A DNA stretch of 64,000 bases from Sugiyamaella lignohabitans. Taxonomy: Eukaryota > Ascomycota > Dipodascomycetes > Dipodascales > Trichomonascaceae. Made by a program: the position numbers and the translations under genes. Under the pieces are notes generated by a model. The model made no database searches. It had not been told where the DNA came from and worked only from the letters and a program-made list of their open reading frames with translations. The stretch is taken from contig NC_031671.1 of the NCBI RefSeq assembly GCF_001640025.1, positions 2,170,001 to 2,234,000 of the forward strand. Reading direction: 5' to 3'. Shown here one piece after another: positions 3,271 through 24,139 of this stretch; positions within the stretch are counted from its first letter, which is position 1, and each line of letters begins with the position of its first letter.

Positions 3271-4875
3271 TTATTTCGTTATTGCCTTTGCTACACCGAT
3301 ATGCGATTGGCCGTTTAAGTTTTCATCGACATTATATGACTGCGACAGTTCATTATCGTCTTCTGGAACATTTTGGAATTGTGACGTTGGTCGACTTAAC
3401 ATGTCCTCAGACGTGGGTCTTTGGTTGTAATCTCCCTTGACGTAATGATTTACTACTCCATAATAGCTGCTGTGATTGTTTCGTTGCCTGAGGGACTTGG
3501 ATCCTTCATCTCCCGTGTCACTATAGTTCTCGCCGTCATCATAGAGATCATTGTCGTTGTGATCAAAGTCCGTGCTGCTATGAATGGTCGTATTAACTCC
3601 CTTTCCAGAGCCTATTACCACTGGACTATGATTACTCATATCCGCTTGTAAATCAGACTGAGACAGCTGTTGTAGATTTAGGTCTTCGCTGCTATCTTGG
3701 GTTCTGCGGTTGACAAAGCTGTGGTTGGACTCGTTCTGGTCAATAACATGCTCTCTAGCATCTATATAGTCGTCATCTTCATCAATCTCAAGATATGGAG
3801 GTAGTCGTGATGGCAGGATCCTGCGGGCTGATCGTGAAATAGGATTGCTAGAACTCGTTTCACCCGCCGGGTTAGCACTGCCAGTATGGACACCGGTATC
3901 ATATTGACTGTGAAGATCAGCTTCTTCTCCATATTCCTCGTCGGCAACACCACTGTGAGCACCATTGGAATTGCCAGTATTATGGACGGGATATGGTGGC
4001 GGAGCTTGGAAAGACTCGGAATCATAGTTCGATGCCCTGTCAGTGGATCCCCATCTTTGGGTCATCTCACGACGAGTTGCTGCCGGTCCTCCACTGTTGG
4101 GATTATGTGATTGCATATCCAATCGCAATGCTTCCGACCTCACAGCACTGGACTTTTCCAAATCTCTTGCCCTCCTTTTCTTCACTATATAAAGTCGAGC
4201 AATCAACCCTATAATGATAATGCCAATAATTAGGAAAAAAAAGTACAGATATTTCAGACCCGAGGATCCTGAACTAGATGGGATATCCAACGAATACGGG
4301 CTCGTTGAGTTAGACCCTGCAGATGTCGATGTACCGTTCTGAGGGGCATGGGTAGAACCAGGTGTCGAACCCACGCTGGATGTACTACTATTCGCCGACG
4401 GAGTTGCTACAACAATAACAACGTTTCTTGCAAGAATAGAGAATGATGTTGGTAACAATGCCTCTGGGAGTGACGTAGTCGTACTCATAATCGTACTTTT
4501 ACTTGTACTCGTACCCGTACTCGTAACAGCAGCTGAAACACGCGAAACTGCCAACAATGCCAGAATATATCTGAATGATGTCTGCAACTGAAATGTAACA
4601 TGTCCTAAACGTCCGAAAGTCGGTTTCAGGTTCGTTTTCAAACGCTGTGTTCCTAATTTATTTGATAATGTCTGTAACAGTACTGGCAAAGACACATGGT
4701 CGGTGTGTATCGCAGCCAGTGGTGGGGTAAGCAAAAGCAGCACTTCAATACCCTTTAAATCGTATATAGTGGGCCAATCATCGCAAACCGGTTCCAAAAG
4801 ACTGATATCCATATCGGATTCAGTCGTTTTACGACTGATGCTATTATTGTCACTGTATTCAGCCAATTGGCGCAT
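3271..4875 (-). CDS. Single-pass membrane protein with PPxY motifs
   Basis: 534 residues from the ATG at 4875. One strong transmembrane helix spans about residues 207-230 (YFFFLIIGIIIIGLIARLYIV), followed by the positive stop KKRRAR. The segment before it (115-205) is Ser/Thr-rich, like an O-mannosylated ectodomain. The cytoplasmic tail (231-534) is acidic and low-complexity and carries PPPY and LPPY, potential binding sites for the WW domains of Rsp5-type ubiquitin ligases. Yeast Rcr1/Rcr2 and other Rsp5 adaptors share this plan, but I do not recognise a specific orthologue. Residues 101-116 resemble a signal peptide ending VSA-A, and a CAG acceptor-like site lies just before them, so the first ~97 residues may be wrongly included and a short upstream exon may exist. 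Confidence 0.65.
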   Translation of the reverse strand: MRQLAEYSDNNSISRKTTESDMDISLLEPVCDDWPTIYDLKGIEVLLLLTPPLAAIHTDHVSLPVLLQTLSNKLGTQRLKTNLKPTFGRLGHVTFQLQTSFRYILALLAVSRVSAAVTSTGTSTSKSTIMSTTTSLPEALLPTSFSILARNVVIVVATPSANSSTSSVGSTPGSTHAPQNGTSTSAGSNSTSPYSLDIPSSSGSSGLKYLYFFFLIIGIIIIGLIARLYIVKKRRARDLEKSSAVRSEALRLDMQSHNPNSGGPAATRREMTQRWGSTDRASNYDSESFQAPPPYPVHNTGNSNGAHSGVADEEYGEEADLHSQYDTGVHTGSANPAGETSSSNPISRSARRILPSRLPPYLEIDEDDDYIDAREHVIDQNESNHSFVNRRTQDSSEDLNLQQLSQSDLQADMSNHSPVVIGSGKGVNTTIHSSTDFDHNDNDLYDDGENYSDTGDEGSKSLRQRNNHSSYYGVVNHYVKGDYNQRPTSEDMLSRPTSQFQNVPEDDNELSQSYNVDENLNGQSHIGVAKAITK

Positions 4876-6033
4876 AACGACAAATCCAGTGAAAGCGGGC
4901 TGACCAATTAGTCTCTACGGCAGAACGCGAACTCTACTTTCTCCAGTTGTTGTGCTTTTTCTAATACTTGATTCTTACAATAATCATTCCATATTTTACG
5001 AATATCCATCCATTTCCGGCCGTTCCGTCGCCCTCACCTCTTCTGTAAATTTTAGCTATGACAGTCGCTTTGAGACAACCCTTCTAAAATACGGTATAAG
5101 AATGGCGTACAAACTCCAACAGCTTATAAATAAAAAAAGTAAAACTATCTGTATCCCAAACGTAGCTCTTGGTACTGATAAATGTCCTCAAATCTGACAA
5201 TCCACACTTTTGAGATGAAATTCGGATATTTCTCCTGAGGTTTTTCTACCAGTTGAGTCGCAAAACTGTACATACAGGCTTCAAAATGAGCCAAATCTGT
5301 ACCTGCCTACCCGAGTGGTTCCGGTCCTAAAAGTATCCAATCGTATTTTATTATTGTACCAGCTGTTAGTACTTTTGGCGGATGCTAATTATCAGCAGCA
5401 GAATCCAAGCCCAAAGCTCATGTACGAGTGCTGTATGGCGTGAGTGTATGTGGGTATATGTGGATGGTAGAGATGTCGCTCATCCTGGATGGATCTAGTT
5501 GTCTGGCATGTATGTACATCAGCACGGCTTCAGCTTTGACAGGAAGCCCCACATCTAGAGATTAACCGCATCTAATCACATCTAATCAGTGGCTGCATCT
5601 CTCTCTCACCGTCTCATTTTCGTTCTTTCAAGTCCTGCATAATCAAACTGACACTAGCCAGAAATTCGCATCTAATCTACTAAATATAACATATGATTAG
5701 TCTGTCCATATCTGGAAACACAGAATTTGTTAGATAGACTGTTAATTACCCTTCGCTCAGATACTAATCAAACTGACGTCAGTCAATAAAATTACCCAAT
5801 CCACACATACCACCTCATCTAAAACACCCTAGCAGTATCCAGACCACGTGCTATAAGCGTCCCGAACTTATCCTACCAAAAAGTACAAAGCCAACCAACC
5901 CACTCCCGTTCCAAATACAGAAACCAGATCTGACATTCCACCTGGGCAGGGGTATGCACAGACACACAGGACGCCAGATAAGGTTATCGTTATCTATCCG
6001 ATCAGTCGCCGATCATCGATGCCAGGGGCCAGA
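4876..6033. other. Intergenic region upstream of the membrane-protein gene
   Basis: No gene recognised. It contains scattered copies of the short motif CATCTAATC (around 5566-5690) and a perfect CRE-type palindrome at 5774-5781. The foldback element at 6034 closes it. Confidence 0.4.
5774..5781. promoter_or_regulatory. CRE-like palindrome TGACGTCA
   Basis: Perfect 8-bp ATF/CREB bZIP site inside a longer near-palindrome ACTGACGTCAGT. It lies about 900 bp upstream of the membrane-protein start. Assignment to that gene is inference. Confidence 0.35.
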
Positions 6034-6174
6034 TGCCTCCGGCAGCCGGGGCTCCATCCCAGACCCTGGTTGCTCTTCTGGCTGCGCTCAAGTCGGTTCG
6101 TCTACGGTTCCCGGCTATCTCCTTCTTTGCAGGAGCAACCAGGGTCTGGAGCGGAGCCCCAGCCGCCGGAGGCA
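6034..6174. repeat. Foldback element (inverted arm pair) downstream of GTR1
   Basis: Two ~60-bp arms in inverted orientation around a short unique centre, about 28 bp beyond the GTR1 stop codon. The left arm carries several substitutions (GGCAGCCGGGGCTCCATCCC). The right arm has the TGCAGGAG-type inner module. Confidence 0.85.
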
Positions 6175-6202
6175 GCACCCCCAAGGAGAAAAAACAGAGT
6201 CA

Positions 6203-7244
6203 TTAATTAGATTCCTCGATGGTCTGGAACCAGGTGCGTGAGGCGCGGATGTTTGCGATGATGGTGTTGCCGTCGATATCGTTTGCTCCAGCCGGGGCTC
6301 GACCTGCTGGCGGCATCACCACCATGATGAATGTGTTGGGCGTCAGGGTGTCGATATAGGCCGAGCAGTTGAGTCCATGTAGCGACACCGTTTGGAACTG
6401 CGACCGCATTTTGCTGCAGCTTTGTTTGTATGTTTTGATGATGTTGGAGATTTTCTCGAACCGTTTCGGGTCCAGTTTAGGGTCTGTTTTGGACTTGATA
6501 CTCGACACAAAAGTGCTGGCTTGTCCTCCTGACACGTGTGAGATCACCAGGAACGTGGTCCGTTCAAACAGCACTACTTCTTGTGCCTCGCTGATATCAG
6601 CAAAGCTCTCGAGGTGTTTCTGAAATGTCGCCATATTAGGGATCAGAGAACATACAATGCTCGACCACGCTTTATATAGCGATTCATCCCAAATAGAGGT
6701 GGCAAACCCGGTCAGTGAGAATTCAAACGGCTTAGCCTGGTCTCGCAACGTCCGCATCGTGGCATTAAACACCTCGTCTCGACGCTCGGCACGCACCAGA
6801 TCCATTTTATGAAGTAATACAAATACTTTAGCATCAGGCGAAAACTCTCGTAGGTACCTCAAGCATCGAATAAATGTCTCGATATCCTTTGTGACCTCTT
6901 TGGACTCGACATCAAACACATGAATCAGCACTTCCACCATCCGGAAGATGTGGTCCTTCTGTGTTGTGAAGTAATTGTCTATAAACACATCTTGTCCACC
7001 ACAATCCCACAAGTTTAGAGTCATATGCCCCAGAAATCGCAGATGTGAATGTTCTACATCGATGGTAGCTCCTAATCGCCGAGTATCGAACGCTGAATAG
7101 TTACTGAAGATAATGCTTCTCATCGACGACTTGCCCGACCCACTGCGGCCCTATTTTCACTCGTTAGCACCTCTGACACCATACGTCTTCATCTTCAATA
7201 CTCACGATCAGCAACAGCTTTTTCCTCGACGAATTTCCCGCCAT
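6203..7244 (-). CDS. GTR1: Rag-family GTPase Gtr1 (RagA/B orthologue), two exons
   Basis: Exon 1 is 7206-7244 (MAGNSSRKKLLLI) and exon 2 is 6203-7150, giving 328 residues. The 55-nt intron 7151-7205 has donor GTGAGT, a GCTAAC branch and acceptor TAG. Splicing restores the P-loop GRSGSGKS (residues 14-21), which the exon-2 frame alone lacks. Switch II is LWDCGGQDVFIDNYF, the Rag-type WDxGGQ, and HKMDLV is the base-recognition motif in which Rag proteins replace NKxD. The C-terminal half is the roadblock-like dimerisation domain. Gtr1 pairs with Gtr2 on the vacuole, anchored by the EGO/Ragulator complex, and relays amino-acid status to TORC1. Gtr2 is not in this window. Confidence 0.93.
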
Positions 7245-7358
7245 TTTACAACACAATCCGTGAAATACGCTTGTCAAACTGACGGTCAGTCTTGTTAATG
7301 CAAGATCGGTAATAGGTGGACTGCTAGCGCCGTGCGTTGCTGGTTCGGGGAGATGGCG

Positions 7359-7491
7359 TGCCTCCGGCGGCTGGGCTCCGCCCAGACCTGGTTGTGCTCG
7401 CTTCGCGAGCCCTCGGATCGTGGTGGGGAGGCCTTATAGGACGAGCGAAGCGAGCAACGGGGTCTGGGGCAGCGCCCCAGCCGCCGGAGGC
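7359..7491. repeat. Foldback element in the GTR1-ERG9 divergent spacer
   Basis: Inverted arm pair whose inner modules are GCTCGCTTCGCGAGC and its relative GAGCGAAGCGAGC, with the outer modules CCTCCGGCGGCTGGG and CCCCAGCCGCCGGAGG. Confidence 0.85.
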
Positions 7492-7996
7492 GTCAGGGGG
7501 TACCGAGCAGCAGCGACCTCCGGCTGTCAGCGCTCATTTCATCGAGCTTAATTTTAAATTTCGCCGCTAACGGGTTACTGTGGTGGTAGGAGTGCGAGAT
7601 AATCGGTGTTTTGATGCTCAATTTTGCTCTGATTAGAGCTTGGTCGTGTTTTGATGTGGTTACCCCTGATCTGCATTACATATGCTAGTTATAGTCTGAC
7701 AGCTCAGGGTCCTATCGGCTCTAGCTGGTTTTGAACGGCCCGGACCGGGGTGAATTCTGTGGAAAATAACGTCAAATTTAGTAGGAGGAGTGGGTGGGGG
7801 TTTTTATAGAAGTGTTTATTCTGGGTCAGGGGAGATGGGTCAGGTCAATGTTTCTCAGGGGATAGGAATCACTGCGGCTAGTTACCCGGCCTGAAAAATC
7901 CAGAGAATCGTCGTATATGGTCTCACGTGTAGACATAAATATGGGCAGTGAACATCTAGCGGTAGAGGGACTGTATCGAGAGAACATTTTTTTACA
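7492..7996. promoter_or_regulatory. ERG9 upstream region
   Basis: No gene recognised. A CACGTG core lies at 7924-7929, about 70 bp upstream of the start codon, a bHLH-type site that could serve a sterol regulator. That link is inference. Confidence 0.35.
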
Positions 7997-9545
7997 ATGA
8001 GCAAATACCTTGATCTGTTGACACATCCGAGTGAGCTTTCGGCAGCTCTGGAATGGTAAGTAGATTTGCAGGAATATTCATTAATTTTATGTGGCAATTG
8101 ACTCTCCGATAGTCAGCAGTGACTTTTTGATCTGGTCCAGCTAACTCTGGTACAGGAAGTTTTTACGCACACCATTACACCCTAGAAACATTTCTAAAGA
8201 GTCACCTACACTTAGGAGATGTTACGAGCTACTGGATTACACATCACGATCGTTTGCTGCTGTTATCAAGGAGCTTCATCCTGAATTAAGAGATGCTATC
8301 ATGATCTTTTACGTTATTCTACGTGGATTGGACACTATTGAGGACGACACTGAGTTGGATAATGATATCAAGATTCCTCTTCTCAGATCGTTTAAGAGTG
8401 TCCTTGATAAGGACGACTGGACTTTTGATGGAGTTAGCGAGAAAGAACACGACAGAATTGTATTGGTTGAATTCGATACGGTTCTCACTGAATTCCACAA
8501 ACTCAAGCCCGAGTACCAAAAGATCATTGCTAACATCACTCATAAGATGGGCAATGGTATGGCTGACTATATTTCCAAAGAATCACAGAAGAACTATGAA
8601 GGCGTGGAGACTATTGCTGCCTATGACTTGTACTGTCATCATGTCGCCGGTATTGTAGGTGAGGGTCTAACCCAGCTGGCGGTTCTATCGGGATTCGGAG
8701 AACCTATTCTGGACAAGAACCCTCAATTGTACAATTCAATGGGTCTCTTTTTACAAAAGACCAATATCATCAGAGATTTCAGAGAGGATCTAGACGACGG
8801 CCGTTCATTCTGGCCAAAGGAAGTATGGTCCAAGTATGCTGATTCTCTTGTTGATTTCACCAAACCTGAGAACGAGAAAAAGGCTTTACACTGTGTTAGT
8901 GATCTTGCTGTCTTGTCTTTACAACATGTTGAAGATTGTATTGAATACCTTGAGAACATTAATGAGCCCTCTCTGTTCAGTTTCTGCGCCATTCCCCAGG
9001 TCATGTCCATTGCTACTCTAGAGCTTGTGTTCAACAACAAAGACATCTTCTACAGAAATATCAAGATCCGACGTGGTCTTGCTGCCAAACTCATTCTAGA
9101 AAGTGGAAATATTGCTGGTGTGTATAGGATCTTCAAAGACTACACACGCAAGATCCATCTCCGCAACAGACCCGACGACCCTAACTTCTTGCGCATCGAA
9201 ATCATCTGCGGCAAAATCGAAAAGTTTATTGACGAACACGATCCTACCTCGGCTCTTAACGTTGCCAAAGCTAGCCGGGCCACCAAACGTAAAAACGAAC
9301 CTTCCGAATTCGCTATTTTTGTTGCTGCCGCTGCTATCCTGTCGGTGACATGTGGAACCATGGTCCTCATCGCGTATCTCAACGGAGCACGTTTTGATCT
9401 CGTTTTTGCAGACGGCTTGAAAATGGTCAACCACCTCCTGTTCAATGGCCCCATGCCAAGCTCTGCACACGAAAACGTCGTGCCTGCTGTCACAGCTACC
9501 GTTGCCAGCGTCGTGGAGTCCGTCATCCCCCACTCTGATCTTTAG
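7997..9545 (+). CDS. ERG9: Squalene synthase, two exons
   Basis: Exon 1 is 7997-8055 and exon 2 is 8156-9545, giving 482 residues. The 100-nt intron has donor GTAAGT, a GCTAAC branch at 8140 and acceptor ACAG. The splice rebuilds the tryptophan in LEWKFLRTPLHP, typical of the family's N-terminus. Both aspartate-rich, magnesium-binding motifs are present: DTIEDD (79-84) and DFREDLDD (227-234). A C-terminal hydrophobic helix (about 405-429) anchors the enzyme in the ER membrane. It condenses two farnesyl diphosphates head-to-head to presqualene diphosphate and reduces this with NADPH to squalene, the first step committed to ergosterol. It converges on the dioxygenase gene, with a foldback element in the 206-bp gap. 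Confidence 0.95.
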
Positions 9546-9584
9546 TATATATAATCTGCGCAATATAAACTCGGCGGTGGACCA

Positions 9585-9722
9585 GCATCCGACGGCTGGG
9601 GCTCTGCTCCCAGACCCCGCTGCTCCTCTTGCTACGCTCGAGTCGGTACGTCGACGTGCCAGTTATCTCCTGCGAAGCAGGAGCAACCAGGGTCTGGGGC
9701 GGAGCCCCAGCAGCCGGAGGCA
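9585..9722. repeat. Foldback element between ERG9 and the dioxygenase gene
   Basis: Inverted pair filling most of the convergent 3' spacer. The left arm ends CTCTTGCTACGCTCGAGTCG. The right arm has the CTCCTGCGAAGCAGGAG hairpin. Either strand would fold in a read-through transcript. Confidence 0.85.
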
Positions 9723-9751
9723 AGTGGCTCGGAGATGCAAGTTCTGGTTTA

Positions 9752-10648
9752 CTATAGTTTGGTGAAGTTGTCACCACCAGTCGGAGGGACTTGGAGCCAG
9801 TTGAGACAGTCGTAGTTGCAGGCTCCGTCAATGGCGTGGAATGTGTATGCGTAGCGGGATTTGGATGAGGTGTTTTTGTTGGACCGATGGAGAACAGAGT
9901 TGTGGATGAGGACCAGACTGCCTGCAGGACACGTCAGTCGCACGAATTTGTCTCCAGTGGGCTCCTGGTATTCAGGGACGTTTTCCAGACGAAGGAACTC
10001 GGTACCAGATCCGTCGGCCTTGCGAACAAATCGTTTGTAGACAGGACATGTTTTGTGTGAGCCGGGAATGTATTCAAGAGCTCCATTTTCAATTGTACAG
10101 TCTTCCAGGGCATACCAGAATCCGACAGCGCTCTGGGGTTCGGTGTATAGAAATGTGCCGTCCTGGTGGGTTGGAACTTCACCACCGATCTCCGGCTGTT
10201 TACAGATGAGCATGCTTTGAAGGATTTTAGGCTCTTTGAAACCAAGTGTATCGGCAATTGCCTTGTTACGGGCTGTAACAGATACACTGGAGAACACCGG
10301 ATCAAGTTCGTGTAGCGCATGTCCTACTTTATTGACTGCCGCGGACTTGTCTCTTGTGAGGTTACCTTCTTTATCGAATGCATCTTCCTCAAAAAAGAAT
10401 CGGATCTTATCAGAAGATCCTAAGAAGTAATCATCACCAACATGTTCAGCAGACTCGTCACCAACATTTTCTCCAGTGGTGAATTTCGTCTTGGGGTGGT
10501 TCTCCATTGGAAACTCCTCCAACAGTTTGTGACCTCGACTCAGCAATGCAGAAACTTGTTCTTTAGATAACTCTCCAGGTATCACTAAACATCCATTCTT
10601 TTCAAAGAAATCAACCTGATCGGGTGTCAGTCCTTCCGCTAACGACAT
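9752..10648 (-). CDS. Phytanoyl-CoA dioxygenase family protein (PHYHD1-like)
   Basis: 298 residues from the ATG at 10648 (MSLAEGLTPDQVDFFEKNG). A frame extending to 10714 adds 22 hydrophobic residues that I judge to be 5' leader. The Fe(II) facial triad is visible: H161-x-D163 (THQDGTF) and H254 (VLHRS), with R265 suited to bind 2-oxoglutarate. FWYALEDCTIENGALEYIPG is the usual block between them. It is closest in pattern to human PHYHD1, a cytosolic 2-oxoglutarate dioxygenase of uncertain substrate, rather than peroxisomal PAHX. No PTS1 is seen (ends FTKL). A cluster of GATA sites lies just upstream. Confidence 0.85.
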   Translation of the reverse strand: MSLAEGLTPDQVDFFEKNGCLVIPGELSKEQVSALLSRGHKLLEEFPMENHPKTKFTTGENVGDESAEHVGDDYFLGSSDKIRFFFEEDAFDKEGNLTRDKSAAVNKVGHALHELDPVFSSVSVTARNKAIADTLGFKEPKILQSMLICKQPEIGGEVPTHQDGTFLYTEPQSAVGFWYALEDCTIENGALEYIPGSHKTCPVYKRFVRKADGSGTEFLRLENVPEYQEPTGDKFVRLTCPAGSLVLIHNSVLHRSNKNTSSKSRYAYTFHAIDGACNYDCLNWLQVPPTGGDNFTKL

Positions 10649-10680
10649 TGTTATGTTTATGAAATCCGGAAAGATGTCCA

Positions 10681-10732
10681 GGGAGATAAGAGATAAGAAA
10701 TAAGAAATAGTCACCCTTGCCCTTATCGGTTA
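10681..10732. promoter_or_regulatory. GATA-site cluster
   Basis: GATAAG occurs twice in quick succession (GAGATAAGAGATAAG), with the related AATAAG repeats next to it and CTTATC shortly after. The cluster sits just upstream of the dioxygenase start, suggesting a GATA factor (nitrogen or iron control), but the factor is unknown. Confidence 0.35.
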
Positions 10733-10844
10733 TTACAGGTTCTGATCAAGCTAAATAGTCGCGTTGGATTCTCGAACTAGCTCAGATCGATTTAACAACT
10801 CGATCCAAGTTCGTCGCCATTCCTCAGAAATTAATGACCCACCA

Positions 10845-10847
<3 letters not shown>

Positions 10848-10889
<42 letters not shown>
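10848..10889. repeat. (TAA)n microsatellite
   Basis: About 14 uninterrupted TAA units just past the stop of the first pseudokinase gene. The duplicate copy at 16424-16445 is shorter and interrupted. Confidence 0.9.
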
Positions 10890-10900
10890 GCCAACACTCT

Positions 10901-13132
10901 TTAATAAAAACATCTTCTTCTCCTTTTTCGAGACTTTTCCTTCGGGTGGTTCTCAACTGTCTTAAACAGCACTTTCAATTTATTCCAGTCAACTGAAAAG
11001 TCAACATCTTTACTAACTTTTGTAAAACTATACTGGAAATTCGTGAGTACAACATCATCAGCAGCACGAACCATAATACCATTTCTTCTGCCATACTTGT
11101 GGAATACGCCCAGTTCATGTATTTGTTGGTAGTTCTCTTTGACCGTTTTATACAAAAGCTGTAGATCTCGACGAACCTTGACCTCTTCTTCCACTGAGAT
11201 ACCTTCACGATTGAGCTCAGTTGCCAATCTTTCCATAAAATCGACGATAGGAATGTACTCATTCATACGTTCGGTTACAATAATATTGATTTCGCCTTCT
11301 TTTAATACCTCGTATAAATGTGGAATAATACTTCCTTGAACGCTGGTTAGCTTTTCAAATGCCCGTTTTTCGGCAGTGAAATTATGTTCCACACATTTTG
11401 GGTAACATCGAATCGTGGCAACAATTCCATCCACTGTGGTGAGCTCCTTAATGATAGGTTTATAACTTCTCATCGCCTGAATCATCAATTTATCCCAATC
11501 AGCGGGGGATCGAAAGCGTCCTAGATCGGGTTTTGGCCTAACCACCCGCTCCAGCCTACGTACATCTAAGTTGATTGGAGGCAACCGTTCACGTTTAGTG
11601 TGTCTATCAGATCTAAAGAACTTAGTGTGACGAATGATGTTAACCGGCGAAAACTCCATGGCATCGGGACTCGGAAGAATTGAATACGGATTCGGCTCCA
11701 TCTTTATTTCCATTGCAATGGACTTACCCCGTTCGATTGGATCTTCGCTCGACCAGTGTGTCAAATAAGCAGCTATCGCATGTCTCACAGTGGGCTCTGT
11801 AGAGTCGTGATTAAGCCGGAATATATCGTAATTCAGCCGACCATCCCTGTAGCCAGTGATATCAATGAAGAATGTTTCATAAAAGCTGGATACTATGAAA
11901 TGAGTAAGCTTGGATTTTAATAGATGGAACCGAAGCTCATCCATTACTAAATACCAATGTGGACTGCCATAACATAAATTCAAATCAGAGCTAGACTGAA
12001 AATAAATCAATCCCACAGTCATGTCCATCCGATCAGTGAAGCAGTTCTTCTTATTCATTGCGTGAATGGAATCGATCAAATTCACATTCACGAAAGTATA
12101 TTTAGGCCCTTTGTTGAGATGCCGATATTTGTCGACGTGGTACGACTTAAGATAATGGAAGCTAAATTTACAACCTTCAGCAAAAAACAATGGTCTTAAA
12201 ACAAAGCGGCAGATGGTCAAAAATATACTTGGGAGTAATTCATCTGTATCATAAGACTTGAACTCTGACGGAACTGAGGAGGCTCTGTATTTCAGAACAC
12301 TTTCGCGATCGCCCGACACAAAATTGCTGTAGATTTCTTCACTGACTGCCGCCAATCTGACATTAAAACTATCAATAAAAAAGCTCTTAAATTCATCTCT
12401 GCTTACTTCCCTTGCATTATATCTGTAGCCACCGACCGTCTCAATTCGAACCAAGTCGTTACGGTGCCAATTGTGAATAACATCTTCTAGAGGTAATTGA
12501 AGATAGACTTTGACTGCATGTGAAGACCAGGGACCACCCCTCCAGTCTTGTCCACTACGTAGCAATCTCTCTGAGGTTAGGAGTCGGTCAAAGTCTTTGT
12601 ATGGGCCCTGATTTATGAACTTTTGATAGTCCGAAGCAGCACGACTCTCAAGCAGATATCGCTCTCCCATTCTCGCGTACTTTACATCATAGACATGCTT
12701 AGCAGTAGCCCACTGAGTGTGAAAGTCACGTCTTAATTGCTGTAAAACTGGGTTACTGTCAATGATTTGACCTATAATCTCTTTTTTACCCTCCTCCTGT
12801 TCCTCCTCCCAAACCGCTAAAGGGCGAATACAATTATCCAATTGAGGATAAAGTGAGCCGTCAATGAATTCTTCGGTTGATGGCTTCCATGGATAAGGTG
12901 TAAATTGCAGAGTACGAAGATCAGACTTGAGTTCGGCCTGGATGCGCCCAGATTGAGCCAAAGGACTGTTATCATCAGCTTTCACTTCGTAAAGCTGCAA
13001 ATCATATTGATACTCAAGCTGGAAGGGAGTCAAGAAGGCTTCGCTGAGAATCTGCACATCTTTGTACTCATCGTCAATACAATCATATATTCGGTGTGTA
13101 ACCGGGGGATGAGAGGGATTTTTGTCAGTCAT
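10901..13132 (-). CDS. Pseudokinase-like protein, copy A
   Basis: 743 residues from the ATG at 13132, chosen because it aligns with the start of the paralogue (MTDKN/MTKEY); the frame runs open to 13201. The first ~500 residues match no family I can name. The C-terminal ~170 residues follow a protein-kinase pattern: a beta3-like ATIRCYPK, an alpha-C-like AEKRAFEKL, then IIPHLYEVLKEGEINIIVTE, then QIHELGVFHKYGRRNGIMV, then VVLTNFQYSF. Every catalytic residue is replaced: VAIK Lys by Arg, HRD by HKY (678-680) and DFG by NFQ (698-700), and no glycine loop is seen. The tail RKRRRR may be a nuclear signal. It is divergently transcribed from the nuclease gene at 13807. Role unknown; it may be a resistance factor for that nuclease. 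Confidence 0.7.
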   Translation of the reverse strand: MTDKNPSHPPVTHRIYDCIDDEYKDVQILSEAFLTPFQLEYQYDLQLYEVKADDNSPLAQSGRIQAELKSDLRTLQFTPYPWKPSTEEFIDGSLYPQLDNCIRPLAVWEEEQEEGKKEIIGQIIDSNPVLQQLRRDFHTQWATAKHVYDVKYARMGERYLLESRAASDYQKFINQGPYKDFDRLLTSERLLRSGQDWRGGPWSSHAVKVYLQLPLEDVIHNWHRNDLVRIETVGGYRYNAREVSRDEFKSFFIDSFNVRLAAVSEEIYSNFVSGDRESVLKYRASSVPSEFKSYDTDELLPSIFLTICRFVLRPLFFAEGCKFSFHYLKSYHVDKYRHLNKGPKYTFVNVNLIDSIHAMNKKNCFTDRMDMTVGLIYFQSSSDLNLCYGSPHWYLVMDELRFHLLKSKLTHFIVSSFYETFFIDITGYRDGRLNYDIFRLNHDSTEPTVRHAIAAYLTHWSSEDPIERGKSIAMEIKMEPNPYSILPSPDAMEFSPVNIIRHTKFFRSDRHTKRERLPPINLDVRRLERVVRPKPDLGRFRSPADWDKLMIQAMRSYKPIIKELTTVDGIVATIRCYPKCVEHNFTAEKRAFEKLTSVQGSIIPHLYEVLKEGEINIIVTERMNEYIPIVDFMERLATELNREGISVEEEVKVRRDLQLLYKTVKENYQQIHELGVFHKYGRRNGIMVRAADDVVLTNFQYSFTKVSKDVDFSVDWNKLKVLFKTVENHPKEKSRKRRRRCFY

Positions 13133-13806
13133 TAGATTGTGGAAAGGTTCATTAGTGTCAAATCCCTGTTTTTTTATGGAAATTCCTGATATACATAACA
13201 CGCGGCGAAGGGTGGTTTATGCTTATAACAGTTAAAATAAGGTACTGCCCGCTTGACAGGTCATTTTCGCCATATCGCGCACCTTTAAATTATATTCCTT
13301 TTCGTCCCTGGATCATGTAATGTTCCTTCTAATAAACCGAAGGTTTGAGCATTGAACATTGATCAGGAACTAAAGACCGTAGACCGAGTTAAACATATAC
13401 CATTGAGTACGCTTCCAAAATGAGTTACTTATAGCCATAGCCTTAATCCTCTAAACAAGACATAAGCCCGTCTCGAACCCACCAAACAAATATTAAGTGT
13501 AGCACAGAGAATGCTATCATAGAGAAGATTGCGAGGCCCAAGGGCCTGTTATTCTTAAGCGGGTCGTAGCTCTTTAAACCTTCAAAAGTAAGGTGCTTCA
13601 AGGGCTACGAGGACCCTTGGACCTTGGACGGCTTTGCCACGACTTTAATGTTGCATGATCTAGCGACGTGAACATGCAAGTATCACATCCCTGCATACCC
13701 CGGAAAGTTACATGCACAACATTGTTTTTCTCGTCTCCCTGCTGCTACAAGGAAGTTACCTGCAACACTCTTGTCTACATTCAAGCTGATATTCCCTCTC
13801 GTGACG
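13133..13806. promoter_or_regulatory. Divergent spacer between pseudokinase A and the nuclease gene
   Basis: 674 bp serving both start codons. It holds a strong nested hairpin (13535-13623, listed separately). I see no other gene. The matching spacer in copy 2 does not show the hairpin. Confidence 0.45.
13535..13623. other. Nested stem-loop in the divergent spacer
   Basis: Paired segments: GGGTC/GACCC (13561-13565 with 13612-13616), GTAGC/GCTAC (13566-13570 with 13604-13608) and ACCTT/AAGGT (13578-13582 with 13590-13594). An outer CCCAAGGGCC (13537-13546) can instead pair with GGACCCTTGG (13611-13620). It could be a structured leader, a small RNA or a cruciform. No transcript evidence is available. 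Confidence 0.45.
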
Positions 13807-15245
13807 ATGAGTACCAGTGAATCTCGTAAGTAGAGACAGTACAGCAAACTGGAGGAGTGATCTAACAGAGCTCAGCAGATATCATTGCTCACCTGCCCCC
13901 GGTAACAACCCGTTACATCATAAGCCGACTCGGTGAGTCAATTGAACCACCTGCCCCTAAAAGAGCACGTACTGCAATTTCCACACGCAGCAGCACCATC
14001 AATCCCTTTTATGAGTACAATGGAAATATCGTCTTCAACGACAATGAGGAATTTGATAACAACTTCGGCCTGGACAACTTTTTAACGGAACTTGTCAATA
14101 GTGATAATCCTTCAAGATTCCACAAGCTGAAAAGCGGGAAATCTTTTACTGGTAGAACGCTCCCCAAGACCTTCACGAGCGAATCAGAAGTCGAGGAGTG
14201 GGTTTACGCCATTCTCGAAAATCTAATATCCGGGCTGATAAATCCACTTCTCGATGATGACTATGACCCTGCCAAGAAAGAACTAAAGTCACAGCTCAAG
14301 CAAGCGATTGATACGTTCCAAGACGAGTGCAAAGAAATGTTGAATTATTTAAAAAACACAATCAACTCATTCCCGAAATTGTTAAACAAAGTGCAACTAC
14401 AGTCTGGTATGGAAGATCACAAAGAAATATTTGATAAGAGCCTGGAAAGTTTGACCGTGACATACAAATCTGCTCTAATTGCTGCATCTACAGACATAAT
14501 AAGCAGTAGCGAAGACTTCAATTATGCGTCAAAGCTACTCAAAAAAAATATCAGAAAAATAAAGGAGGCCTACACGGCATATTTGTCTTTTGTCTATGAG
14601 GCCATTCAAAGTGATCAAACTAGACTGGTTAGCCTGGTTAGCGACCATCCCGTAGTCAGTCGAACCACACTTTTCATTTCCTCTTTTGAGAAACTACTCA
14701 GTGATCTCGGAGATATACCCAGTCATCTTATTAATTGTGATTCCCCAGGACCTTATACAATTGGGCGTCAAAATGCCGACTACTCACTCCCTTTGGACCG
14801 GGCACCCACTAATCGTGAACCCAGGGCCGATATTTACATCAGTAAGGGCGAAACTGTCATGGTTGTGGAGTGTAAAAAGCGGTCGGTCAGTAGCCTTCAA
14901 AGCATAATTGAGAGCAACACAGCAAATTCCCGTCGCCTACTCTCCCAGCTGTCCAAGTACTCCTATTGCTATGCAACGGGACACACAGTCTTGACCACAC
15001 TGGGAGAATGGGGTTTCATCAATTATCAAGTGGACGATGATTATAATGTCGCCATCAACGCCCATTTCGGCAGCATTGAAGTGGAAGGTGAGCATACACT
15101 TCGGCGGAAGTTTATTAGGTATCTCTATTCAATGGCGGCTGAAGACCCCGATATGATAAGGAGAATACGTGAGATGCACGAAGTTGCTCGCGATCAACAT
15201 AAGATGGGACGCTTGACCAACATTTTCGACGTAGACATGTCATGA
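13807..15245 (+). CDS. PD-(D/E)XK nuclease-fold protein with helical N-terminal region
   Basis: Exon 1 is 13807-13825 (19 nt) and exon 2 is 13876-15245, giving 462 residues. The intron has donor GTAAGT, branch CTAAC and a CAGCAG tandem acceptor, so a 13879 start (one residue fewer) is equally in frame. The frame is open from the acceptor to the stop, about 150 residues further upstream than the first internal ATG. PPAPKRAR near residue 30 may be a nuclear signal. Residues ~140-260 are helical and coiled-coil-like. The nuclease signature is D325 (RADIYI), then VMVVECKK with E338 and K340, then a helix with QLSKYSYCYATG. This is the restriction-endonuclease-like pattern. It sits head-to-head with pseudokinase A; its own duplicate is wrecked. 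Function untested; a DNA-damaging effector is plausible. Confidence 0.7.
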
Positions 15246-16456
15246 CTCCAATCTATGTCCAGAATTATTGGCTTTTAGAATTATCGGCAAGCAAGTCCAC
15301 CTCAATAATATCTTATTCAACTATGGACTGAGATGTCGTAAGAATCAACCCATGGAGAGCAACCAGAGTAAATACGGAAACATCTCAGTCTCCCCTATCA
15401 GGGTCGGCCAGCCAGTTCAATACCTGTCCGACATACATCAAACTTATCGTTCCAGGCTTGCTATGAAATATTCACACTCACAAAGTACCTACATTCCAGT
15501 CCTAAATGCCAAATTTTCGATCACGTGACAAATAATAATCTGCATCGCCCAGTATTTATCCTAACTCTAGCTGAAATATCTATATACAAAATGGAAATGG
15601 GGTTAGAATTTTTACTTCCCACTCTGGACTGGAACGAAGGGTGAAGGTCCAGGGGGTATGGTGTCACGATTCCCGCTTCCCGATAGCTTTTTCCGTTATC
15701 TCCCGACGTCTACCGACTGCTCCGCATGTCAGCCGTCTTCCTGCCGCTCTCCGACATCACTCCAAATGCATACTTCTGCATCTCATGTCGACTTCGCCGA
15801 CTTCTCTCTCTATAACTTGTCCTTGATTAGTTTCATGTTGAAGCTAATGTCGTGTGCTCCACTTCCTTTGTTTCCAGTTTGCCTTAGCTTGTTTCACACT
15901 CGCTTCTCCTTGATCATTTGACCCACGTTTTGTTTCATCTAATAATTTCGCCTCATTTTCTTTTCAAAGATTCTTTTCTATTTTTTCCTCTTGTTCTCAA
16001 GTATTATATAAAGGTAGTATATTTTGCTCTTTCAATTATTTTAATTTTTTAGATATTAAAACATCTGTTATCCTTACAAAAGCTTCCTTCAATTGCGATT
16101 ACTCCCAGTACTTAACCTACTTTCATATAACTTTATTCTAGGGTAAGACTAAATGAATCTTGAAGGTTAACTAGTTATTCTCATAATTCTTATCTCTAGA
16201 TAATGGTTTCGCAAACTACTTGGATAAAGTATTCCGAATATCTCAGACATGAAACATCTAAACATCTTCGGAAACCACATCTGGCATATGGTGCAACGCC
16301 GCAGACCACCGCTTCATATATCTGTCTAACCAGCTCAGATTGATTTAACAACTCGATTCAAGTTCGTCGCCATTCCTCAGAAATTAATGACCCACCAATA
16401 TAATGATTTTGAAACTGAAAATAATAATTATAATAATAATAATAATCCAACACTCT
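15246..16456. other. Spacer after the nuclease gene
   Basis: Holds the end of duplication copy 1 and the COQ4 5' relic (to about 15610), then about 700 bp of pyrimidine-rich, AT-rich sequence with no gene seen, then the start of copy 2 at about 16327 and a short TAA tract at 16424-16445. Confidence 0.45.
15515..15610 (+). pseudogene. Relic of the COQ4 promoter and first codons
   Basis: The block GATCACGTGACAAATAATAA, TCTGCATCGCC, GCTGAAATAT, AAAATGGAA and ATGGGGTT matches, in the same order, the COQ4 upstream region and start at 19862-19980. Homology stops there and no COQ4 body follows. It marks how far the duplicated segment reached. Confidence 0.6.
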
Positions 16457-18694
16457 TTAATAAAAATATCTTCTTCTCCTTTTCCGAGGCTTTTCCTTCG
16501 GGCCGGTCTCAAATTTCTTAAACAGCACTTTCAACTTTTTCCAGTCAACTGAAAAATCAACATCTTTACTAACTTCTGTAAAACTATACTGGAAATTCGC
16601 GAGTACAACATCATTAGCAGCACGAACCATAATGCCATCCTTTCTACCATACTTATGAAATACGCCCAGTTCATGTATTTGTTGGTAGTTCTCTTTGACC
16701 GTTTTATACAAAAGTTGTAGATCTCGACGAACTTTGACCTCTTCTTCAACTGAGATATCTGGACGATTGAGCTCACTTGCCAATCTTTCCATAAAATCGG
16801 TGATAGGAATGTAGTCATTCATACTTTCGGTTACAATGATATTGATTTCGCCTTCTTTTAATACCTCGTAAATATGGGGAATAATACTTCCTTGAACACT
16901 AGTCAGTTTCTCAAATGCCAACTTTTCGGCAGAGAAAAGATGTTCCACACACTTCGGGTAACATCTAAGCGTGGCAAAAGTTCCATTCACTCTGGCGAAC
17001 TCCTGGATAATAGGCCTATAACTTTTCATAGCCTGAATCATCACTTTATCCCAATCAGAGGGGAATTGAAAGCGCCCTTGATCAGGCTTTGGTCTAACCA
17101 CCCGCTCTAGCCTTTGCAAATTCAAGTTGATTGGAAGCAGTCGTCTCTCCTTATCGTGTTTATCAGGTATAAAGAACTCAGTGTGACGAGTTATATTAAC
17201 CGGGGAAAACTCCATGGCATTGGCGGCTGGAAGAATTGAATACGGATTCGGCTCCATCTTAAGTTCCATTACAATGGACTTACCCCGTTTGCCGGGATCT
17301 TTTTCGTTTGACCAATATGCTAAATAAGCAGCTATCGCGTGTCTGACAGTAGGTTCCGTGGAGTCGTAATTAAGGCGGAATATATCGTAATTCAGCCGAC
17401 CATCCTTGTAACCAGTGATATCAATGAAGAATGTTTCATAAAAACTGGATACTATGTAATGAGTGAGATTGGATTTTAATAGATGGAAGCGAAGCTCATC
17501 CATTACCAAATACCAATGTGGACTACCATAGCATAAATTTAAATCAGAGCTAGACTGAAAATAAATTAATCCCAATATTTTCTCATCCTGATCCTCATCA
17601 TCCAATGACTCTATGTTCTTCATTAAGTGGATGGAATCAATCAAGATTCCATCCACGAAAAAAAATTCAGCCCCTCTGTCGATATGCCGATATTTCTCGA
17701 CCTGGAACGACACATCATAACCGAGGTTGACATTACTACCTTCGGCAAATAGCAATGGTGTTAAAACCAAGTTGAAGATGGTCAAAAATAAACATGGGAG
17801 TAATTCATCTGTGTCATAAGATTTGAACTCTGACGGAACTGAGGAGTCTCTCTCGTCCAGATCATTTTCGGCATAATCTGATCTAAGATCATCCTCGTAG
17901 ACTTCTTCACTGACGCTGTTCAATCGGGAATTAAAGCTATCAATAAAGAAGCTCTTAAATTCATCTCTGCTTACTTCCCTTGCTTTATATCCGTAGCCAC
18001 CGACCGTCTCATTTCGAACCAAATCATTACGGTGCCAATTGTGAATAACATCTTCTAGAGGTAATTGAAGATAGACTTTGACTGCATGTGAAGACCAGGG
18101 ACCACCCCTCCAGTCTTGTCCACTACGTAGCAATCTCTCTGAGGTAAGGAGTCGGTCAAAGTCTTTGTATGGGCCCTGATTGATGAACTTTTGATAGTCC
18201 GAAGCAGCACGACTCTCAAGCAGATATCGCTCTCCCATTCTCGCATACTTTACATCATAGACATGCTTAGCAGTAGCCCACTGAGTGTTAAAGTCACGTC
18301 TTAATTGCTGTAAAACTGGGTTACTGTCAATGATTTGACTTATAACCTTTCTGTTACCCTTCGCCTGTTCTTCCTCCCATGCAACTACAGGGTGAATACA
18401 ATTATCCAATTGAGGATAAAGTGAGCCGTCAATGTATTCTTCGGTCGATGGCTTCCTTGTATAACTGGTAAATATCAAAGTACGGAGATCAGACTTGAGT
18501 TCGGCCTGGATGCGCCCAGATTGAGCCAAAGGACTGTTATCATGAGCTTTTACTTCGTAAAGCTGCAAATTATATTGATACTCAAGCTGGAAGGGAGTCA
18601 AGAAGGGATAGCAGAAAATATGACTTTTTTCTCCGACAACACAATCATATATTCGGCGTGTGACCGGGGAACGAGAGGGGTATTCTTTAGTCAT
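16457..18694 (-). CDS. Pseudokinase-like protein, copy B
   Basis: 745 residues, paralogue of the protein at 10901-13132 over its whole length. The same kinase-like C-terminus carries the same lost residues: ATLR in place of VAIK, HKY (680-682) for HRD and NFQ (700-702) for DFG. It ends in a basic RKRRRR tail. Identity between the copies is uneven: residues of about 150-255 are nearly identical, including at the DNA level (about 18000-18340 against 12430-12770), while a central segment of about 110 residues (nucleotides about 17570-17930) is strongly diverged. The frame is fully open although its partner nuclease gene is destroyed, which suggests it is kept for its own sake. No function is assigned. 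Confidence 0.7.
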   Translation of the reverse strand: MTKEYPSRSPVTRRIYDCVVGEKSHIFCYPFLTPFQLEYQYNLQLYEVKAHDNSPLAQSGRIQAELKSDLRTLIFTSYTRKPSTEEYIDGSLYPQLDNCIHPVVAWEEEQAKGNRKVISQIIDSNPVLQQLRRDFNTQWATAKHVYDVKYARMGERYLLESRAASDYQKFINQGPYKDFDRLLTSERLLRSGQDWRGGPWSSHAVKVYLQLPLEDVIHNWHRNDLVRNETVGGYGYKAREVSRDEFKSFFIDSFNSRLNSVSEEVYEDDLRSDYAENDLDERDSSVPSEFKSYDTDELLPCLFLTIFNLVLTPLLFAEGSNVNLGYDVSFQVEKYRHIDRGAEFFFVDGILIDSIHLMKNIESLDDEDQDEKILGLIYFQSSSDLNLCYGSPHWYLVMDELRFHLLKSNLTHYIVSSFYETFFIDITGYKDGRLNYDIFRLNYDSTEPTVRHAIAAYLAYWSNEKDPGKRGKSIVMELKMEPNPYSILPAANAMEFSPVNITRHTEFFIPDKHDKERRLLPINLNLQRLERVVRPKPDQGRFQFPSDWDKVMIQAMKSYRPIIQEFARVNGTFATLRCYPKCVEHLFSAEKLAFEKLTSVQGSIIPHIYEVLKEGEINIIVTESMNDYIPITDFMERLASELNRPDISVEEEVKVRRDLQLLYKTVKENYQQIHELGVFHKYGRKDGIMVRAANDVVLANFQYSFTEVSKDVDFSVDWKKLKVLFKKFETGPKEKPRKRRRRYFY

Positions 18695-19129
18695 TAGATT
18701 GTTGAAAGGTTCATAAACTGAACTACTAAGTGTTCGTTATGGCCAGACGGCAAGTGTGGGTGGTGCATATAATGTTCCAAGACACTGCTGCTCGACGGGC
18801 TAAATCTTAGTATGCTTCATAATTTATTAAATTTAAAGCCGTCTAGTCCTGAGCCTTGCCAATGTACCTTCCTAACAAGTGTTATGTTCGAACTTTAAAC
18901 ATCTATCAGGACCTACATGTTTCCAACAGCAGCACCCTTTCATAATTAGTCCATTAAGCTTAAGTATGATGATAATGGTGAAAAGAGATCGACTTATTGC
19001 CTTAGTTCTCAAATAGGAATTGGGTCAATATCAATATCACAACTGATGTACAACTGTTGTAGAGCTTCCTGAACAATCTTCAGTACATACCGGGTCAACT
19101 TTTACCTTATGATACAACAAGTAGATATT
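18695..19129. other. Spacer upstream of pseudokinase B
   Basis: Corresponds to the divergent spacer of copy 1 plus the lost 5' two-thirds of the nuclease gene. I could not find the nuclease first exon, the coiled-coil part or the hairpin here. Confidence 0.4.
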
Positions 19130-19565
19130 ACCGAACCACTGGACTGACTCCTTTGGACTCCAGGGTTGATATTACAGTAGCTTTTGGCGAAGTTGTCGCG
19201 GTTGTCGAGTGCCATGCCAACAGAAGGATAGACTGAGAAAGCAAGCAGCAAGATTCCACTACATCTCTCCCAGGTATCCAAACACTCATCAACATAGCAA
19301 CGGGTCAAACAGTCCTGACCACTCTGGGAGACGTGAGCTTTTTTGACATTGCTAGTGAGTGACAATTTCAACTCACCATCAACATACGCACACACTTTGC
19401 TGATCTGGAAGAACGAGGTGAGCTTACCATCAGATGGAAATTTTCTGATGACCGGAAAATAATAGACAGGATAGATGAGATGCAGATAACTGCACACAGC
19501 GTCCATATCAGGAGAACAGCTGGGCCAGCGCTTCGACATGCAAATTTCATGACTCCAGAATAAAA
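19130..19565 (+). pseudogene. Decayed nuclease gene (3' fragment)
   Basis: Nucleotide matches to the intact nuclease gene run through GTTGTCGAGTGCCA (against GTTGTGGAGTGTAA at the E-x-K motif), TCTCCCAGGTATCCAA (TCTCCCAGCTGTCCAA), GCAACGGGTCAAACAGTC and CCACTCTGGGAGA, and continue past the stop into ATTTCATGACTCC. The frame is broken by in-frame stops (for example TGA in AGACTGAGAAAGC) and small indels. The 5' part of the gene is gone. The motif Lys codon of ECK also appears altered. Confidence 0.75.
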
Positions 19566-19951
19566 ATACCTCCCGTAGAAAGTGTAAAGCTGAATGTTCC
19601 ATCTATAACAGAAATGAATATCCAAACTTATATGGTTTTTAGTATTATGGGCAAACACGTCGCCCTCAGATAATATCTATTCAACAAAACATGATCTTTG
19701 ATCTTTGAAAGTGGAGTAAGATCTCACAAGAAGCAACCCAAGGAAAGCAACCAGACTGAATATTAAACATCTGGATCTCCCTATTCGAACTCCGTCAGTC
19801 CGTCAGACTCATATTGTACATCCAATGAGTTTTTGTTTTATTAGTGTCTTCAGACTGAAGTCGTCTTCACGTGACTAATAATCACATGATAGATTCTGCA
19901 TCGCCTGATATTCATCCAAACATGGTGCTGAAATATTACTATGCCATGAAA

Positions 19952-20818
19952 ATGGAATCAATTCAAACCATGGGGTTGATTAGGCCTACAGGGCGACTTG
20001 TATCAAGACTTGTGTCAATGTCAAACAAGTCAATTATAATACCAAGATTAGTGCGAAGTTATTCGTCAGACCACAACTTCAAAGTATCAGCCAAACCAAA
20101 CTATCCAGGCCATGTTCCTCTCAACATGTTTCAACGGGCATTTTTATTTGTGGGATCAGGAATTGCTGCTTTGAGCAATCCAAGACGACCAGATTTAATT
20201 GCCACCTTTGGTGAAATGACAGTACAACCATATTTTATCACACGACTAAGAGATGAGATGTTGCTAGATCCAGTTGGAAGAAGAATCCTACGAGAGAGAC
20301 CACGAATTACTTCGAAATCTCTAGATCTCGACAAGCTTCGAGCATTACCTCCAAACACGGTAGGAAATGTCTACATGCAATGGTTAGATCGCGAAGGGGT
20401 ATCACCTGATACAAGATTACCAGTTCGGTACATCGATGATGCAGAATGTGCCTATGTAATGCAAAGATACCGGGAATGTCATGATTTCTATCATGCAATT
20501 ACCGGGTTACCAGTTCTGATGGAAGGCGAAGTAGCAGTTAAAGCATTTGAATTTGCAAACCTTGGAATTCCAATGACCGGACTTGCCGCTTTTTCTGAGC
20601 CATTCAAGCTGGCTCCTAAAGCCCGCCGACGCATCAAAGATATTTATATTCCATGGGCCATATCCAATGGGCTCAGAAGCAAACTTCTTCTAAACGTATA
20701 TTGGGAAGAAGTACTCGACAAAGACGCAGATGAACTACGAGCCGAGCTAGGTATCGATGTACCGCCAGATCTCCGGCAACTTCGAAATCAAACTAAGTCC
20801 AAATCGGTCCATAAGTAG
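19952..20818 (+). CDS. COQ4: Coenzyme Q biosynthesis protein Coq4
   Basis: 288 residues from the ATG at 19952. In-frame ATGs at 19886, 19922, 19946 and 19970 are alternatives. 19952 is preferred for its AAAATGG context, its conservation in the duplicated relic, and because an Arg/Ser-rich mitochondrial presequence ([14 protein letters not shown]) follows at once. The metal-binding motif is complete: H177-D178-x2-H181, then E193 ([18 protein letters not shown]). Coq4 acts on the matrix side of the inner membrane, organises the CoQ synthome and is linked to C1 decarboxylation/hydroxylation of the ubiquinone ring. The promoter has CACGTG at 19868-19873. The upstream region was copied into the duplication at 15515-15610. 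Confidence 0.92.
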
Positions 20819-21120: not shown

Positions 21121-21925
21121 ATGGTTTCAGCGGAGCAGTTGGATCAATTGAAAACAAGGGCCTTAAAAGGTATGTTATTGACTTTACAGCCAGCAGCAGC
21201 ACCATGAAACCGCTCCTCTAATCTGGTCACCACGCAGATTCTGGATCTGTACTGCTGGTTAGAATGCCAGAAATATCTGTGAAATGAAGCAGCAGACACT
21301 GTATCACCCAAACTGTGAACTTGAACTCGTATTCGGGGAAAAAACCAGCAACTAACGAGCGCAGCCCGCGACATGTCGTACTCGCCATACTCGAAATTCC
21401 GAGTTGGAGCCGTGATCCTGACAGAAGACGGCGAGTATATCGACGGAGCCAATATAGAAAACGCCAGCTATGGCGGCACTATCTGCGCTGAGCGCACTGC
21501 AATTGTCAAAGCGGTGACTCAGAAGAAAACCTCATGGACCGCTATCGGCATCTCCAGCGACCTCGAGGAGCCCTGTAGTCCCTGTGGAATCTGCCGCCAA
21601 TTGTAAGTGATAGAATTGCCTTCGGCGGCTGGGGCTCCGCCCCAGACCCTGGTTGCTTCTCTCGCTCCGCTCGAGTCGTTACTTCAGGGGTCGCACCAGC
21701 CACTCCTGCGAAGCAGGAGCAACCAGGGTCTGGGGCGGAGCCCCAGCCGCCGGAGGCACGATCACACCCGCAAAACCGTCGTCTAACTATTGTTTCAGCA
21801 TTCGCGAGTTCTCGCTCGAGTCGCTTCCTATATACATGTTTACGACCAATGGCGACTATAAACTGGCAACGCTCGGCCAGCTGCTTCCAATGAGCTTCGG
21901 GCCCGAGCATCTTAAACCGTTCTAG
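21121..21925 (+). CDS. CDD1: Cytidine deaminase, three exons
   Basis: Exons are 21121-21169, 21365-21602 and 21799-21925, giving 137 residues. Intron 1 (195 nt) has GTATGT and a CTAAC branch. Intron 2 (196 nt) has GTAAGT, TCTAAC and TTTCAG, and carries a complete foldback element. Zinc ligands and the catalytic Glu are present: C57-A-E59 and C87-x2-C90 (PCSPCGICRQ). The splice rebuilds CRQFIREFS. The enzyme deaminates cytidine and deoxycytidine in pyrimidine salvage, as a small cytosolic tetramer. Its TAG stop overlaps, on a shared CTAG, the TAG stop of the convergent YKE2 gene, so the two coding regions overlap by 4 bp. Confidence 0.93.
21617..21758. repeat. Foldback element inside CDD1 intron 2
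   Basis: Complete inverted pair starting 14 bp after the donor and ending 40 bp before the acceptor. Left arm: TTGCTTCTCTCGCTCCGCTC. Right arm: CTCCTGCGAAGCAGGAG. The intron would fold into a long hairpin that brings its ends together. Confidence 0.9.
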
Positions 21926-23999: not shown

Positions 24000-24139
24000 T
24001 GCCTCCGGCGGCTGGGGCTCCGCCCCAGACCCTGGTTGCTCCTGCTTCGCAGGAGATTGCGGGCACCGTCGACGAAACGACTCGAGCGCAGCGAGAGGAG
24101 CAACCAGGGTCTGGGGCGGAGCCCCAGCCGCCGGAGGCA
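24000..24139. repeat. Foldback element between PBA1 and NOP56
   Basis: Inverted pair in the 268-bp convergent 3' spacer. The left arm has the CTCCTGCTTCGCAGGAG module. The right arm has CGAGCGCAGCGAGAGG. It could act on 3' ends of both genes. Confidence 0.9.

Follow-up and report, generated by a model that had tools for sequence, protein, structure and literature searches.

Does a nuclease-like gene that stands head to head with a kinase-like gene in Sugiyamaella lignohabitans, with a damaged version of the same pair next door, belong to a two-gene killer, one gene poisoning and the other protecting? The first-pass annotation, made from the letters of a 64,000-nucleotide stretch (here called the window; bases 2170001-2234000 of contig C3), had proposed a duplicated split toxin-antidote system with the parts of a Spok killer. 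On balance we consider it probable that the pairs form a two-gene toxin-antidote family, in which the nuclease would be the toxin, a pseudokinase the antidote, and both would be served by one shared divergent spacer. The argument is built on the pairing of the two genes across the genome, on the nuclease motif and on the unequal decay of the two partners, and three other explanations are weighed along the way.

The duplication claimed for the pair was borne out and is larger than stated, since both pairs of the window are members of a ten-copy family. Used as query against the genome (15,932,016 bases, or 15.93 Mb, in 4 contigs), the kinase-like protein had 19 matches, namely 10 long open genes of 704-745 codons each and 9 fragments, and another kinase-like copy had 20 genome-wide; the nuclease searches returned 9 matches at E<=1e-3 for the copy in the window and 13 at E<=10 for the copy on contig C1, all of these family counts being lower bounds. 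The ten units are lettered A to J (Table 1). In the 3 kb inspected upstream, every one of the ten kinase-like genes has a nuclease gene or a nuclease fossil in head-to-head orientation. Four nucleases are intact (A, B, D, F) and six are fossils (C, E, G, H, I, J); all four intact nucleases adjoin an open kinase-like gene, none of them being partnerless in this one genome, and the two live nuclease types each have their partner adjoining. Not all ten kinase-like copies are pristine: the first 37 residues are missing, in frame, from copy C, and the C-terminus of copy J is altered. Decayed kinase-like fragments are clustered at C3:2120835-2122593 and C3:585745-587696, and neither cluster had an adjoining nuclease match in the genome searches with the D and F nucleases. 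The linkage must be read with some caution, as pairs may stay together simply through duplication as blocks.

Within the window, both kinase-like frames are fully open, as had been claimed, and the nuclease gene of pair D was confirmed once one intron was read. Depending on the acceptor, at 13875 or at 13878, splicing then leaves 462 or 461 codons with a single stop at the end; with the intron unread, the longest open reading frame is just 302 aa, from 14337. The intron has a GTAAGT donor and a CTAAC branch-like site, and none of the four intact copies has lost the start codon, donor, branch-like site or acceptor. The kinase-like protein of copy D ends in the basic tail KSRKRRRR, and most partners have a basic tail of this kind. 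By blastn, the repeat unit that holds pair D has an inverted copy in pair A (C3:2151069-2156625, 99.1% identical), and the unit of pair B (C3:2156631-2162216) is 98.0% identical to that of A. The nuclease of the second pair had been described as a truncated copy full of stops. A broken remnant is indeed present, but recent damage to a copy of the first nuclease does not explain it: its amino acid identity to the intact nucleases is about 28-38%, the N-terminal part of the nuclease is unmatched in it, and a histidine occupies the place of the motif lysine. To judge from its sequence, it is an old fossil from another nuclease lineage.

Table 1. Family units in the genome and features of pairs D and E; positions without a contig name are those of the window.
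Feature	Position	Strand	Remarks
Units A, B, C	C3:2152-2166k		
Units D, E	the window on C3		
Units F, G	C1:978-987k		
Unit H	C3:2334-2338k		
Units I, J	C3:588-595k		
Repeat unit of about 5.55 kb with entire pair D	10772..16319	.	blastn
Kinase-like gene, copy D (candidate antidote)	10901..13132	-	743 aa, ATG at 13132, fully open
Weak protein-kinase similarity, C-terminal 203 aa of copy D	10904..11512	-	profile matches
Degenerate catalytic loop, HKY for HxD and NFQ for DFG	11039..11101	-	motif assigned by eye
Fast-evolving module of copy D (candidate specificity region)	12035..12370 (residues ~255-366)	-	dN/dS
Divergent spacer of pair D, between both start codons	13133..13806	.	674 bp
Nuclease-like gene of pair D (candidate toxin)	13807..15245	+	461-462 aa, one intron
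Exons of the pair D nuclease	exon 1 13807-13825; intron 13826-13878 (or to 13875); exon 2 to 15245	+	
PD-(D/E)XK-like motif D-x12-E-C-K, then QLSKY (QxxxY)	14829..14960	+	in 4/4 intact copies
Second kinase-like gene, copy E	16457..18694	-	745 aa, fully open despite dead nuclease
Nuclease fossil of pair E	19066..19482 (about)	+	C-terminal part only, two stops, motif K -> H

The first-pass annotation had called the smaller protein a PD-(D/E)XK nuclease, and this call is upheld by the conserved motif and by weak profile matches, while the confidence of the structural model is too low to confirm the fold. Residues D317, E330, K332, Q356 and Y360 are invariant between nucleases D and F, which are 56% identical in amino acids overall. 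With the C-terminal part of the D nuclease, the sole Pfam match was HSDR_N_2 (E 7.9e-4, below the curated cut-off), the sole NCBIfam match was YraN (E 0.09), and the sole match among solved structures was 1ob8, a Holliday-junction resolvase, with D, E and K aligned at E 0.87; we take YraN and HSDR_N to be members of the PD-(D/E)XK superfamily. The full nuclease profile placed 1ob8 second among solved structures, behind a keratin, and the full-length proteins had no match there. For copy F, Pfam returned the unrelated PRF first (0.0094) and PDDEXK_15 second (0.093), and control searches with one reversed and three shuffled nuclease fragments yielded one unrelated Pfam match at E 0.095. The nuclease had no matches in PADLOC and PHROGs and none in a large protein collection, and PF13588, searched against the genome in all six frames, gave none either. 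The AlphaFold model, made with an alignment of 4 paralogs, has a mean pLDDT of 39.5, with the catalytic part below 50.

For the partner, the kinase fold that had been proposed finds weak agreement in profile searches and none in Pfam, where a kinase is absent in all ten copies; the AlphaFold model (alignment of 10 paralogs), at a mean pLDDT of 29.6, is too low in confidence to confirm a fold. The PADLOC models of PD-T4-6, which we take to be a kinase, match the C-termini of up to nine of the ten copies (best E 7.7e-4), and the NCBIfam MADS6 kinase model matches 9/10 (best E 2.7e-3); two reversed and three shuffled kinase fragments, used as controls, gave no PADLOC match (0/5). These C-termini are also matched in six of ten copies by PADLOC JetA (E up to 0.01) and in six by an NCBIfam aminotransferase model (up to 0.0075), and the full-length partner searched against NCBIfam has a cyclopropane fatty acid synthase first (0.0032) and a kinase second. 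No Pfam family was found for copy D at E<=1. A large protein collection held no match to the kinase-like protein, nor to the alignment at E<=10, and the middle region had no match among solved structures, other weak matches to structures being taken as noise. In all ten copies a tyrosine replaces the presumed catalytic aspartate (HDY in B) and an asparagine the aspartate of DFG. If the kinase alignment is right, the C-terminus of the partner would be a pseudokinase. Two further identifications were tried and rejected. Kinship with the fungal-type kinases of this genome (PF17667) was dropped after a profile comparison without similarity, which covered 4 of 18 places, one of them (L029) poor material, its longest ORF being unrelated. 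Residues 370-480 had looked by eye like a dead REase domain; Pfam gave DUF7832 alone, in one of ten copies and at E 0.45.

The similarity of the partner C-terminus, weak as it is, is to bacterial defence kinases (those of PD-T4-6 and MADS6), and this also suits a host or defence function, according to which the pseudokinase would be the useful part, with a task such as DNA repair or protection from mobile DNA, and would regulate the nuclease as an optional, dispensable effector. The kinase-like genes that are still open after nuclease loss fit as well, retention of the partner alone being equally expected of a useful gene. What makes this explanation unlikely in our view is that a family duplicated to ten copies, with several dead units and with modules that evolve fast in each of the two proteins, looks more like conflict, that one locus (H) lacks the live nuclease carried by its sister segment, and that no intact nuclease occurs partnerless.

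The decay foreseen for a selfish element, with the toxin lost and the resistance gene persisting, was found: nucleases are dead by several routes and the partner frames are open. In G, H and J the nuclease matches end at about residue 175 and the catalytic stretch is absent relative to I; the upstream regions of these three are 88-98% alike, which points to a deletion common to them. In the fossils of I and C the motif letters survive in a disrupted frame, and that of E combines loss of the N-terminal part with the lysine-to-histidine change. The nucleases thus died by at least three separate events or routes while the partner frames remained open. Counted by lineage among the ten units, the nuclease went first in about three cases and the partner in none, which is too few for a significant sign test.

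Selection was tested in eight pairs of kinase-like genes, five of which join copies with both nucleases dead; because the tested pairs overlap, they are not independent, and each value sums over a whole path, part of which may predate nuclease death. With this reading, four of the five both-dead pairs show purifying selection (I-J, P = 5.2e-4; E-G, 7.5e-5; E-H, 1.6e-4; C-I, 8.5e-8), and in the fifth, G-H, a departure from neutrality was not detected (P = 0.14). The remaining three pairs gave P = 3.8e-5 for A-B, 0.0094 for F-G and a marginal 0.055 for A-D. Neutral simulation of the I-J path predicts about 5 stops where none is present (P of no stop 0.006), and the same holds for the E branch, to which half of E-G was assigned (about 5 expected, P 0.005), whereas 2.2 stops are expected for G-H (P 0.098).

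These numbers bear on another explanation, that the units are functionless relics of an old duplicated pair that drifts and whose similarity is maintained by gene conversion. Six of the ten nucleases are dead, exchange between copies is evident as mosaic identity, and selection went undetected in G-H, all of which such drift would produce; four nucleases with conserved catalytic motif and splice sites, and frames that are open where drift predicts about 5 stops (I-J, E branch), would not be expected of it. We regard drift of this kind as very improbable.

Segmental rearrangement is seen at unit H. Its flanks on C3 match those of the F-G array on C1, at 98.5% over 2.4 kb on the left and 97.9% over 3.6 kb on the right, and between them lies one mosaic kinase-like gene without a live nuclease. 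The flank beyond the 3' end of this gene resembles F (99 against 89 per 100), and part of the gene together with its upstream spacer resembles G (spacer 100 and 94 against 73 and 60). The H locus could be a recombination product of the F and G kinase-like genes, or it could be an ancestral form from before the live pair arrived. In the toxin-antidote reading it is the putative antidote-only form of a killer locus whose sister segment bears a live nuclease. Beside H there is an open reading frame of 275 aa (L025 1562-2389), presumably sterol-desaturase-like, which belongs to the duplicated segment and whose counterpart next to F on C1 has been reduced to 181 aa (L023 2239-2784).

Near-identical units at several places on two contigs could also be the remains of a mobile element, with an REase-like transposition or recombination enzyme and an accessory partner that spread by transposition; the available part of one paper, citing earlier work, mentions a proposal that nuclease domains of this class derive from transposons (PMC12693581). 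The copies, however, lie mostly in tandem arrays, and F-G and H share flanks beyond the unit, an arrangement indicative of segmental duplication and unequal crossing-over; between window positions 9000 and 21000 no inverted repeat pairs were present at a minimum length of 40, and an element with terminal inverted repeats of 40 or more was discarded for this stretch. A transposing element is accordingly a quite improbable source of the family. Base composition lends no support to a foreign origin: the GC3 of the genes (0.40-0.47) falls among the values of the remaining long ORFs in the window (0.28-0.58, with a retrotransposon at the bottom).

Several other features of the window were recorded. 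One open frame of 1916 aa on the minus strand (50745-56492) contains an integrase core, SH3-like and RVT_2 reverse transcriptase domains and is probably a copia-type retrotransposon; the stretch at 51-57 kb is AT-rich (32-35% GC). The open frames at 32803-35541 (913 aa) and 3274-4875 (534 aa) had no Pfam family at E<=0.001. Short dispersed repeats of ~60-150 bp, several of them palindromic (matching in both orientations), occur on C3 and C1, in the window at 9579-9722, 21616-21758, 24000-24139, 31139-31284 and elsewhere. Similar G+C-rich sequence was noticed by eye near some unit ends, where it could promote recombination.

In the kinase-like genes sequence change is concentrated in columns 255-370, with dN/dS of 1.08, 1.16, 2.32, 0.89, 1.01, 1.33 and 0.80 in seven pairs, compared with 0.34-0.73 in the first 240 columns and 0.14-0.42 in columns 370-480. 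In this module dN exceeded dS in 23-97% of bootstraps, D-I being the highest (97%) and the only pair near significance; as the excess was not significant at 5% two-sided in any of the seven pairs, relaxed constraint could account for it. Nucleases D and F are most divergent in codons 150-300 (38-46% amino acid identity per 50 codons), and the motif region is better conserved, at 72% in codons 300-350 and 60% in codons 350-400. At the nucleotide level their spacers are 88-97% identical per 150 bp and the first-exon block 95%; past 13950, near codon 23 of exon 2, the nuclease body falls to 63-74%. Spacers far more alike than the nuclease bodies mark the toxin body as a variable cassette, and it is plausible that promoter and N-terminus are homogenised and that divergence is left to the toxin bodies and to the antidote module that matches them.

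From these observations a mechanism can be drawn for the toxin-antidote reading. Toxicity would reside in the ~461-aa nuclease-like protein, in which a fast-evolving middle is followed by the PD-(D/E)XK-type domain and which probably damages nuclear DNA; the nuclear action is suggested by the basic tail of most partners and by PKRAR, which nucleases A, B and D have near the N-terminus and F lacks. The antidote would be the ~745-aa partner, with its kinase-like C-terminus devoid of catalytic residues, and neutralisation would be achieved through binding, not phosphorylation, with the module at ~255-366 as the putative interface. The divergent spacer could couple the expression of both genes. 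Drive would arise when cells or spores that lose the pair die from leftover toxin. Duplication and recombination of both genes would give rise to antidote-only loci whenever a toxin decays or is deleted, and such loci might persist because they guard the cell from toxins that the genome retains or that mates bring in.

Were this true, a split yeast system would let killing and protection be expressed separately, it would pose the question whether protection needs catalysis at all, given a protector seemingly without kinase activity, and a budding-yeast lineage would be added to those with killer elements. The stronger proposal, that this is the first two-gene killer family in budding yeast, with a nuclear PD-(D/E)XK toxin, a catalytically dead kinase as binding antidote, several specificity classes in one genome and antidote-only loci formed by unequal crossing-over, is tentative and somewhat short of probable; among the literature matches listed, as far as those sources were available, there was no such killer case in budding yeasts.

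Several known systems share parts of this design. Crinkler-type effectors combine REase-fold and kinase-fold parts, usually fused in one secreted protein, whereas two genes carry them here. CinA and CinB are bacterial genes that act in insects and form a tandem operon without a kinase-like partner. This Wolbachia pair resembles the present one as a linked pair in which, in the accessible sections of the source, the nuclease kills and an infected partner rescues (PMC8787490), and it differs in having the tandem operon in place of a divergent spacer and a kinase-like partner. An architecture of nuclease plus kinase is described as widespread in the available part of PMC12693581. The Neurospora spore killers and the fission-yeast wtf and tdk genes are, in the portions of the literature at hand, fungal drivers that kill the gametes that do not inherit them; wtf makes toxin and antidote from a single gene, according to the sections available of PMC10721834, in contrast to the two genes found here.

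The closest comparison, and the one drawn in the first-pass annotation, is with the Spok spore killers of Podospora (SPOK1-4), of which the following is taken from the accessible parts of the papers cited. In SPOK proteins the nuclease lysine is needed for killing and the kinase aspartate (D667 in SPOK3) for resistance (PMC6660238), and killing damages DNA (PMC6660238, PMC9972908). Three features of Spok are all missing here. Spok is one protein and each of the ten units holds two divergent genes, or a gene and a fossil; the catalytic aspartate D667 has a tyrosine at its inferred equivalent in 10/10 copies; and the cysteine cluster C-x3-C-x13-C-x5-H-x7-H upstream of the Spok kinase part is absent in 10/10. 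The motif spacing is also unlike that of SPOK3, although D-x12-E-C-K and QLSKY are present in all four intact nucleases. The split toxin-antidote reading is left without the Spok aspartate and cysteine cluster, and keeps the linkage in ten of ten units, intact nucleases only beside open partners, and decay on the nuclease side. As an analogy, and no more than that, the comparison holds: both systems have a PD-(D/E)XK-type nuclease with QxxxY as the proposed killer and a kinase-like part as the proposed protector, and multiple copies, gene conversion, a pseudogene and high dN/dS are features of Spok as well (PMC6660238). On paper, the pairs would work like Spok, and they stand as a candidate in which the two halves of such a killer are carried by two genes.
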